Shown: piece by piece, positions 22,720 through 27,207 of the stretch
Numbering within the stretch: the first letter of the stretch is position 1
Layout of the letters: the number at the start of each line of letters is the position of its first letter
Assembly: GCA_033439255.1 (NCBI GenBank)
Contig: CM065890.1
Coordinates: forward strand, 1,922,001-1,986,000
DNA from: Hericium rajendrae
Lineage: Eukaryota > Basidiomycota > Agaricomycetes > Russulales > Hericiaceae
DNA: 64,000 nucleotides
Direction of reading: 5' to 3'
Program-made: the position numbers and the translations under genes
The notes under the pieces: model-generated
Database searches by the model: none
Told to the model about the DNA's origin: nothing
Seen by the model: the letters and a program-made list of their open reading frames with translations, nothing else

Positions 22720-25101
22720 ATGAGCTTCCGGGCACGAGCAAGTCGCGCCGTGCAATGGCTAGAACTGCCGGAGAGCGACAAGTCCTCGAGCTGGTCGCAG
22801 CTATTCCTGACGGTAATGCGTTTGCGTTGTGGGTTTTGTGCTGCTGATATATGTTTTTTCAGAGTAAGGACTTAAAGCCCGTCGGACCACCCGAGCGGAC
22901 ATGGGGCTCCCTCAACTTCGTCACTTTGTGAGCACTCTACGCCGCGCATACCCATTCTCTGACACCCATGCATCCGATAGCTGGATCGCAGACAGCTTCA
23001 ACATCAACACGTGAGCCCTTTTCTGCAACATGCCGCCATGACTGACCTGTCCGCGCAGCTGGATGATCGTCTCGTCCATGATTCAGCTCGGCATGTCATG
23101 GTGGCAAGCCTGGATATGCGTGTGGCTCGGGTACGGGATCACCGCGCCATTCATCGTCGCGAACGCGCGGCCGGGCGCGGTGCACCACGTTACGTTCCCT
23201 GTCGTCGCACGGACGAGTTTCGGGCTGTGGGGTAGCATGTGGTGTGTGTTCAACCGCGGGGCGATGGCCTGGTGCGTTTTGGGTCTGGAAATGTGTGTGC
23301 TGGAGCTGAGTTGCGCGTAGTATTTGGTACGGTGTGCAGGCGAGCATTGGTGGGACCTGCATGAAGGTCATGTTGCGCTCTATGTGGCCGAGCATCGAGA
23401 ATCTGCGTGAGTACTCTGGATTCGAAAGTACGGTGGACACTGAGGTCGTATGTTAAGATAACACCTTGCCGGCGTCTGCGGGTATCAATACCAGAGACTT
23501 TGTCTGCTTCTTCCTCTTCTGGCTGATCTCCCTTCCGGCCATCTGGTTCCCCATCCACAAAATGTGAGCCACCTCGCAAAATCCGCCTTATATTCCGTTA
23601 ACCGTTTGACGTGCCTTTTTACCAGACGACACCTATTCACTGTGAAGGCGGTTGTCGCCCCCGCCGCAGGCATCACCTTCTTCATCTGGTGCATCGTCAG
23701 AGCAAAAGGCGTCGGCCCGATCGTGCGCCAGCCATCCACCATCCACGGCAGCGACCTCGGCTGGGCGATGGTCTCCAGCCTGATGTCCTGCATCAGCAAC
23801 CTGTCCACCCTTATCACGTGCGCCCTCCCTCCCTCCCTCCTCCGCGCCCTGACGCTGCGCACAGGAATGCGCCGGACTTCGCGTCGCGCGCGAAGACGCC
23901 CGCGGCGGCGGGCCTCCCGCAGCTGCTGTCCGTGCCGCTGACCTTCTCGCTTGTGAGCTTCATCGGCATCATCGTCAGCTCGTCGTCGCAGGTGCTGTAC
24001 GGCGAGCCGATCTGGTCGCCGATCGACCTGCTCGATCGGTTCTTGGATGGCAGTCCGTCGCATGCGACGCGGTTTGGGGTGGGTGTTTCAGGGTGAGGGT
24101 GTGTGCTAGTGCTGATGGGTTCATAGGTCTGGTTCATCTCGGCGTCGTTTATTATTGCTCAGGTATGGATGTTTCAAAGCGTGATGTGCGTATGCGGTGC
24201 TGATCTCGATCTTTAAGCTTGGGTATGGGCGTCATGTTTGAGAGCATTGCTTTGTGAATTAACGAGGCACCAGGACGAACATCTCCGCGAACTCGATATC
24301 CGCAGGCTGCGACCTCACCGCATTGTTCCCCCGGTTCATTGTACGCGCACCTCCTGCTCAAATGGCTCATTCTCATCATCTCCCAGAACATCCGTCGCGG
24401 CGGCTACGTCGCCGCCATCGTCGGCATATGCATGCTTCCGTGGAACCTGCTGAAGAGCAGCGACAGCTTCACGTCCTACCTCTCCGCATACTCCGTCTTC
24501 CTCAGCTCGATAGCAGGCGTCATGGTACGTCCTCCTTATCGAGAACAGAGATGAACTCAAACATGAGGGGCGCCAGATCACGGATTACTACCTGATCCGC
24601 CGCGGGCGCTACCGCGTCGGCGATCTGTATAGCGCGCGCCGAGACGGCTGGTACTGGTACACCGCCGGCATCAATTTCCGGTACGTCTTTCGACATGTGT
24701 CGCCATGCGCGCTGACGCCCCGCACAGAGCATATGCGGCCTACATTGCAGGGATCCTGATCAACGTAGTCGGCTTCGCCGGCGCAAGTGCGTATTTCCGC
24801 ACGGTGCTTGTCCCGCCGATGTATTCTGAGTTTTGGTCTGATAGCCGGCCGCACGGTCCCCATCGCTGCGACGCACATCTACGATATGTCCTTCTTTACG
24901 GGCTTTGGAGTCTCAGCTCTCATATACTATCTGCTGAACGTGGTCTGGCCTGCGCAGGGCTTCTCGAAGTCGTTCAAAGAGGTTGATTTATCTGCAGACG
25001 ACGAGCCGAGTTACGAGGGGGGAAGCATAGACGGCGACGATAAGTATAAGAGCAGCAAGGCATCGGGAGACAAAGTTAATGTAGTTGAAGTGCCCACGTA
25101 G
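22720..25101 (+). CDS. NCS1-family nucleobase permease (Fur type) with a 5-nt micro-exon
   Basis: Fifteen exons close in frame to 554 residues: 22720-22812, 22863-22927, 22981-23010, 23059-23271, 23321-23406, 23458-23563, 23626-23817, 23865-24078, 24127-24162, 24218-24222, 24274-24340, 24387-24524, 24577-24680, 24728-24786, 24845-25101. The protein is a cation-coupled plasma-membrane permease with about twelve hydrophobic segments. Family marks are [15 protein letters not shown] near the N terminus, [44 protein letters not shown] in helix 8 and [12 protein letters not shown]. These place it with the uracil/uridine/allantoin (Fur) branch; the substrate cannot be told by eye. The conserved LGTNIS can only be assembled if CTTGG at 24218-24222 is a separate exon. 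The C-terminal tail is acidic and charged, as in permeases regulated by endocytosis. Confidence 0.93.
24218..24222 (+). other. 5-nt micro-exon of the NCS1 permease gene
   Basis: CTTGG is flanked by TTTAAG before and GTATGG after. The two introns would be 55 and 51 nt, normal for this genome. It supplies Leu and two bases of Gly of the conserved LGTN motif. Without it the exon ending at 24162 (phase 0) cannot join the exon at 24274 (which needs two bases), so reading frame and conserved sequence both demand it. Confidence 0.85.
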
Positions 25102-25204
25102 ACTGAGAGTATTAAAGAAAAATGCATTCCCACCGTCTATAAAAACTCGCTACACCTGGTACACAGCAGTACAACGCACAACCCATGATCGATACAAACA
25201 GTGC

Positions 25205-27207
25205 TCATTTCGGGCCTCCCCTGGCCAGTACACGCGCCTCCGCGATCGCCTCTGCATTTGCCTCCGCATTGATCATCGCCTCCATTTGCGCATCCATCTC
25301 GTCGCTCGCCTCCGAATACGCGACGTGCCGCTTCCCCTTCGTGTCTTCCGCATAGTTCTCGTAAAAGTTGTTCTCGTTCCGCTCGCTCCCCGGCTCAGCG
25401 TCGCCATCGACGTCGCCGTGCTTGCGCCCGGGCCCGTCCCAGAAGTGGTACGCCTGACTGTGCACGCCGTACGACGCGGGCACGACCTCAAGCAGGTCCC
25501 CGCGCGCAACCTCGATCGCAGGCACCTCGGACGCGGGCAGCCCAATGAGGTACGCGAGCAGACAGCGGATGACGGACGCGTGCCCGATGATGAGCAGGTC
25601 CTCCTGCTGCCGCTCGAGCTCGATGAGCACCGGCTCGAGGCGCACGCTCAGGTCGTGGTAGCTCTCCGCGCGCGGCGCGCGGAACGAGTACGGGTCGCGC
25701 GCGAAGCGCTCCCACTCCTCGGGGTAGTACTTGCGCGCCTGGTCCGGCGTCAGCCCGTCCCACACGCCCGGGTTGATTTCGGACATCTGCGGCTTCTCGA
25801 TCACCTTGACGTTGCATTGCGGGCCGCCGGGCTGCTTGGGGTCCGCGGCGGCGAGGAAGGGCCATGCGGTGTGGTGGGTGCGGCGGCGGGCCGAGGTCCA
25901 GATCTGTGTTGGTTCGTGAGAGTGGGTCGAGGGGGCAGGTGAGAGGGTCGTACCACGAGGCGACTGGTTTTGGGGTCAAGTCCACGCTGCTCGAGCGATT
26001 TCTTTCGCCGCTCGAGAACGAAGTCTTTCAGACGCTCAGCGTATTCCCACCCGGGCGGGGACAAGTCTGCATCCGCCCGATATGAATGTTCGATAAGTGA
26101 TTGTCCCGACTGGGTAAGCGGACAAATCAGCGGTGCATTCAACAAAACTGGAAGTCGACTGACTCGAGCGAAGTAGATCGTGCGGAATCTGTTATGGATG
26201 TTCATGAGGAAGAAGACGATCCGCGACTATTAATTTAATGGTGAATATACGCCACGGTAAAGTGAAAGTTCCATTTACTTGCAGATATCCTCTGATATTC
26301 TAGATAATCGCCCATAGTCAGTACCTAAATATAGGCTCAAGGGTGCCACACTTACATTGACCATGATCTTCTCACCCACCTGCGCGAGACCTAAAGTTGA
26401 GATCTCTTCATGACCCGAGTAAACAACGTGGCTTACGTTGATGATACGTATAAACGGCCATGTGAGCTCCTCCACCGGCTCGTAGTGTTCTTGCCGAACC
26501 TGGATTCGATGGAAGTAATCCTTGACGGCCTCGTCTGGATCCCAGCCACGGTACTGCCGCATCCTATCAGACAGAAGCGACGGGCAATCTGCTATCAAGC
26601 GGGCGTACGTCAGGAGACGATATCTTCACACTCCGTATATTCCGCTCTATGATCGCATTGTTGTCGCACATGGATTCTGCTCGCATGCAGTGGGGTCAGA
26701 TGGGCGCGAAGGGAACGTAGGAGAAACAGTACCGAGCATGATGACATGGATCCCCGCCTTGTCAAACTTTTCGCCGAGCTTCTCCCGCTGCGCACGCGTG
26801 CCGTTGTTTGCGTCGTAGATGATGACTTGACAGCCGTTGTTGAAGAAATCCCATATCAGCGCCTCGCATCCCTGCTGCACCTTCTCCCGAAGCGCCTCCG
26901 TCTCAGCACTTTTCTCTCCTACACACCGCGCAAAAGGCAAGGTTCGAGATCGCACTGACTTGCAGGAAAACAGTCACGCACCGAATGAAAAATAATCCGG
27001 GGGCAGGTTGTGTGCACCGCCGAGCGTCTTCCGTCGATAGTCGCCTAAAGAGACGACCTGGGTCTTGACACCCGCCCATCGCAAGTACCGCTCGAGAGCG
27101 CGAGATATGTGTGTCTTTCCACGAGCTGGAAGTCCGACGGTGACGACGAGGATCTTCCCGGCATGGAACAGGAGCCCGGATGCTGTGGTGTACAAGGGCG
27201 CGACCAT
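25205..27207 (-). CDS. 6-phosphofructo-2-kinase with serine in the bisphosphatase site
   Basis: Nine exons (27207-26982, 26918-26733, 26676-26609, 26553-26437, 26379-26356, 26299-26279, 26226-26164, 26109-25954, 25903-25205) give 519 residues, convergent with the permease. The N-terminal kinase makes fructose-2,6-bisphosphate, the activator of phosphofructokinase-1: Walker A G25-LPARGK-T32, later YDANNGT and ESMCDN. The C-terminal half is the histidine-phosphatase-fold fructose-2,6-bisphosphatase. Its phospho-accepting His in the RHGES motif is replaced: residues 235-239 read RSGQS, read across a splice junction. The second active-site His is kept (H395 in [10 protein letters not shown]), but the acidic pair normally near GVxEE reads GVWDG. 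Bisphosphatase activity is therefore probably lost or very low. Budding yeast Pfk26 also has Ser at this position and is mainly a kinase. The tail is acidic and low complexity. Confidence 0.93.

Follow-up and report, generated by a model that had tools for sequence, protein, structure and literature searches.

In the genome of Hericium rajendrae, the gene for an NCS1 permease very probably contains an exon of only 5 nt, CTTGG, at positions 24218-24222 of the window, by which we mean the whole 64,000-nt stretch of DNA that was analyzed (contig 13, positions 1922001-1986000, of a 46.77 Mb genome in 19 contigs). In the reading that we favor, to which we give a probability of about 0.9, two ordinary short introns are both spliced with the 5-nt exon between them, and Q345, L346-G347 and T348 are thereby joined. 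The finding is sound and useful for annotation, and is of a kind that is already known.

The permease gene and its parts

The gene model was assembled by hand from the three forward reading frames, together with known features of the family. The gene and the parts around the putative micro-exon, all on the + strand, are as follows.

22720-25102, + strand: NCS1 permease gene; 15 exons, 14 GT-AG introns of 46-62 nt, 554 aa to the stop
24127-24162, + strand: exon 9; 36 nt, ending in CAG (Q345)
24163-24217, + strand: intron 9; 55 nt, GTATGG...TTTAAG, with a branch-like CTGAT whose A lies 14 nt from the 3' end
24186-24191, + strand: donor-like GTGCGT within intron 9; score 6.5, the highest inside that intron, and in frame with the acceptor at 24273
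24218-24222, + strand: exon 10, the predicted micro-exon CTTGG; 5 nt, Leu346 plus bases 1 and 2 of the codon for Gly347
24223-24273, + strand: intron 10; 51 nt, GTATGG...CACCAG, with a branch-like TTAAC whose A lies 11 nt from the 3' end
24274-24340, + strand: exon 11; opens with the last base of Gly347 (GACGAAC)

The full gene model matched the Pfam family PF02133 (Transp_cyt_pur) with 469.2 bits over profile positions 1-440 of 440, and the NCBIfam family TIGR00800 ('ncs1') with 483 bits against a curated cut-off of 353.1. Because the match spans the whole Pfam profile and exceeds the TIGR00800 cut-off, the gene, judged by its sequence, is an intact NCS1 permease, and its family membership suggests a substrate of the nucleobase/allantoin type. 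The 14 other exons are open and match the family from end to end. The density of introns, their length of 46-62 nt and their CTGAY-like branch sites point to a basidiomycete. When the genome was searched at the DNA level with the gene, the sole match was the gene itself, while a search with PF02133 identified one further NCS1 locus, on contig 2.

At the site in question, CTT encodes Leu346, GG and the first G of exon 11 together encode Gly347, and ACG (Thr348) lies wholly in exon 11, so that the helix reads AQ-LG-TNISAN. The 5 nt between AG and GT fall within the limit of 30 nt that we used for a micro-exon. Skipping the exon would end the protein at 367 aa, retention of intron 9 at 362 aa, and retention of intron 10 at 352 aa. 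An earlier note on this DNA had described CTTGG at this position between introns of 55 and 51 nt, and its coordinates, lengths and sequence are all correct, as is its expectation that the permease would be broken or truncated without the exon. It had also assigned LGT to the exon, of which L and two bases of the G codon belong there; T does not, and the encoded pair is therefore LG.

Alternative splice models and family profiles

We enumerated all splice models between 24127 and 24340 that contain at most two GT-AG introns, each 40-200 nt long, the remaining gene being held fixed. A full-length open frame was found in 32 of the 182 GT-AG models (7 with one intron and 25 with two); therefore, frame alone does not decide between them, and the choice falls to family fit. 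The earlier claim that frame and family conservation both require CTTGG stands in its second half, as family fit does select this exon, but the frame is insufficient by itself. Protein pieces of 155-191 aa round the site were compared with Pfam for all 32 in-frame models and with TIGR00800 for 16 of them. The micro-exon model ranked at the top of the 32 with Pfam (191.9 bits; next 183.3, 183.2 and 182.4) and at the top of the 16 with TIGR00800 (199.1 bits; next 189.5), indicating that, on both profiles, inclusion of CTTGG gives the in-frame protein closest to the family among those compared.

Bacterial profiles gave a different order. With a bacteria-only profile built from 84 homologues, the micro-exon model (344.2) was not separated from a model with a 17-nt exon at 24180-24196 (344.4), and two further rivals scored 341.6 and 341.5, the latter being the single intron 24147-24273. 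For NF008476, the bacterial allantoin permease, 2 of 15 rivals were higher (103.9 and 101.0 versus 99.7 for the micro-exon model), and for NF047713 3 of 15 were (81.1, 78.2 and 76.5 versus 75.9); NF008241, which barely matched, placed 12 of 15 rivals above the micro-exon model, all at 20-22 bits. Just upstream of the helix, the bacterial proteins are seven to eight residues shorter than the fungal one, and the preference of some bacterial profiles for rivals may well arise because the rivals delete these extra fungal residues at low cost. The 17-nt-exon model depends on the acceptor AACGAG, with a score of -1.4.

Homologues, paralogue and Mhp1

The 84 bacterial homologues, used for protein columns only, comprise 79 loci from a scan and 5 plasmid sequences. 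The former derive from 80 loci kept of 561 relatives, with L046 left out since the open-frame filter gave nothing for it; the latter were taken among 30 matches listed, from 219 matching records. The scan relied on RTW- and ALWVGM-like patterns from parts of the protein other than the helix, and the 79 loci were therefore not selected on the columns tested. Both columns of the micro-exon are ungapped in all 84 homologues, a number that overstates the independent evidence as many of the sequences are closely related. The L346 column holds L 34, V 34, M 9 and I 7 times (n = 84), the G347 column S 38, T 36, C 8, A 1 and G 1 times (n = 84), and the columns of N349 and N353 hold N in 84 of 84. A search of viral_contigs for orthologues returned no match.

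The paralogue on contig 2 (3184500-3188000, - strand) encodes TTIGTNISA within one continuous exon and lacks the intron pair at the micro-exon site; its own intron lies 15 nt further on by codon count. This paralogue also carries a 23-nt exon, and its second half seems to lose frame, through either decay of the copy or indels in the assembly. The transporter Mhp1 aligns gap-free, with ATWSTNPAAN from residue 309; G347 and T348 correspond to its Ser312 and Thr313, and the residues of the micro-exon sit at Trp311 and Ser312. Ala309, Ser312 and Thr313 of Mhp1 are reported to coordinate Na+ at the Na2 site (PMC3812048). The NCS1 proteins of Aspergillus nidulans are described as H+ symporters (PMC10788122), and a role for sodium in the Hericium protein is therefore not implied.

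Splice signals and chance expectation

Splice sites were scored with a matrix trained on 12 further introns of the window gene and 6 of the paralogue (18 in total), introns 9 and 10 being kept out of the training. The donors of introns 9 and 10 scored 3.4 and 1.5 and their acceptors 2.5 and 5.3, compared to 3.3-9.5 and 1.9-10.5 for the 18 training introns, ranges that are flattered because these introns trained the matrix. The donor of intron 10 is the lowest among the 14 introns of the gene. In length, both introns (55 and 51 nt) fall inside the 46-62 nt range of the 18 other modelled NCS1 introns, which a single 111-nt intron would exceed. CTGAT or CTGAC occurs in 6 of the 12 other introns of the gene, and intron 9 has CTGAT.

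To gauge chance, the 111-nt interval was subjected to 20,000 dinucleotide shuffles, with the outer 6 nt at each end fixed and both introns at least 40 nt long. An open, in-frame internal exon of at most 29 nt appeared in 41.3% of the shuffles and one of 5 nt in 10.9%, while a 5-nt exon coding for [LIVM][GASTC] appeared in 0.80% and one coding for [LI]G in 0.085%. Thus, any small in-frame exon comes cheaply by chance, and one that fits the family does not.

Alternative explanations

The strongest competitor by splice site is a single 88-nt intron, 24186-24273, which would extend exon 9 to 24185 and add six residues to helix 8, where the micro-exon model has AQ-LG-TN. It keeps the frame (560 aa), and its GTGCGT donor, at 6.5, scores above both donors of the micro-exon model. 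However, the family profiles favor the micro-exon (181.0 versus 191.9 bits with Pfam, 184.1 versus 199.1 with TIGR00800), no insertion is present at this place in any of the 84 bacterial homologues, in the paralogue or in Mhp1, and the intron would be longer than all 18 other modelled introns (46-62 nt), making this explanation quite unlikely. Replacing the pair by one intron with a weak donor (at 24171, 24147 or 24144, in each case to 24273), which would slightly alter the helix and do away with the micro-exon, is highly improbable. All three versions keep the frame, and the 24147 version comes within 3 bits of the micro-exon model on the bacteria-only profile and exceeds it on NF008476 and NF047713; but the donors score -7.7, -2.9 and -2.1, respectively, where none of the 18 others is below 3.3, the introns would be 103-130 nt long (127 nt from 24147), and the Pfam scores drop to 183.2, 182.4 and 175.5 from 191.9.

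It is also conceivable that the gene is damaged or slightly misassembled at this point, and that the micro-exon is a chance repair made by eye. The apparent loss of frame downstream in the paralogue, on another contig, indicates that small indels or decayed copies may occur in the assembly. Against this stand the open, family-matching state of the remaining 14 exons and the low rate (0.80% of shuffles) at which a 5-nt piece yields a family-compatible pair, and we consider such damage or misassembly very unlikely. Finally, the two adjoining introns share their first six bases, GTATGG, and total 111 nt, as might be expected of a nested, stwintron-like pair excised as one unit with no exon left. 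Stwintrons have an internal intron within a splice signal of the external one and are removed whole; removal of all of 24163-24273 would shift the frame and end the protein at 367 aa, and the overall similarity of introns 9 and 10 is at chance level (p 0.28, 2,000 shuffles), so that this reading has hardly any probability. Given the same chance-level similarity, we also rejected an origin of the pair by duplication of one intron.

Proposed mechanism and significance

Exon definition is reported to be difficult for exons below about 50 nt, as the complexes at the two splice sites interfere with each other, while short introns can be recognized by intron definition (PMC8378409, PMC8831610). Under the micro-exon model, each intron would be removed through intron definition, and removal would be sequential, since both sides of a 5-nt exon could not be occupied simultaneously. 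Joining Q345 to L346-G347 and on to T348 would complete the start of transmembrane helix 8, and with introns of about 50 nt a special splicing factor may be unnecessary. From the DNA we infer splicing of the two introns in the cell, in this successive order, and an exon that is most likely constitutive and of a type already known. We regard as unlikely a regulated switch, in which inclusion would give the working permease and other choices a form with a six-residue insertion near the cation site or truncated, decay-prone forms; this idea draws on the weak flanking donors and the stronger in-frame donor at 24186. The 24186-24273 splice could supply an alternative form with six extra residues.

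For annotation, the gene is an instructive case, as the permease would come out broken or truncated from any gene finder unable to handle an exon of 5 nt, at a helix that, in this family, bears residues of the cation and substrate sites (PMC3812048, PMC10788122). It adds a very small inferred fungal exon, in a transporter family, and may serve as a simple test case for the minimum spacing of two introns.

Comparison with known micro-exons

Exons of this size are unusual, yet they have been described in fungi, plants and animals, and tiny exons within conserved motifs are established. The earlier note had called such exons rare, a view that we would temper given exons of 21-23 nt in both of the other genes that we examined and exons down to 1 nt in the literature; its remark that gene finders normally miss them is consistent with published reports (PMC8831610, PMC12940212). 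One of the two genes is the neighboring 6-phosphofructo-2-kinase gene, which has a 21-nt exon (NIRGYLQ; window 26279-26299, - strand), and a rough partial protein from it scored 65.9 bits against PF01591 with this exon and 49.9 without it. Our literature search, which covered titles and the openings of abstracts, found no micro-exon in an NCS1 or other permease gene.

The closest parallel is the 1-nt exon of CYP621A in Fusarium, which its authors describe as the first in a fungal gene and document with 20 orthologues and 18 RNA reads in two species (PMC12940212). In both fungi, the tiny exon was deduced from phases that cannot be joined and from a motif short of bases, and an intronless relative served as a length marker; gene models at the Fusarium site were wrong. 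The Fusarium exon differs in belonging to a P450 gene and in resting on orthologues and RNA reads, whereas the 5-nt exon described here is read from genomic sequence. The P450 genes of Phanerochaete chrysosporium similarly combine frequent introns of 45-55 bp with exons down to 6 bp, some of them in conserved motifs (PMC1184071), and an 8-nt exon in a conserved motif is cited for them (PMC12940212). The permease gene shares the short, frequent introns and a tiny exon in a conserved motif with these genes, but belongs to a different family, and its exon of 5 nt compares with a shortest reported one of 6 bp.

Plants provide examples of the same size class in conserved coding contexts, likewise missed by annotation: exons of 1 nt occur in APC11 and VPS55, and RT-PCR was used to check one of 5 nt in rice (PMC8831610); those exons are backed by RNA, while splicing in the fungal gene is predicted. 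The 4-bp exon of human MPC1, like the one proposed here, has a length that is not a multiple of 3, and it is constitutively included (PMC9929638). In MPC1 the flanking introns are long and an element for exon definition is present, in contrast to the introns of about 50 nt in the permease gene, and because these are so short, intron definition is probably the route taken here. Xlr2 of Trichoderma virens, which shares with our gene a micro-exon in a filamentous fungus, is a transcription factor gene in which experiments demonstrated regulated inclusion of a switch micro-exon (PMC11121469), whereas the Hericium gene encodes a permease whose putative micro-exon is most likely constitutive.
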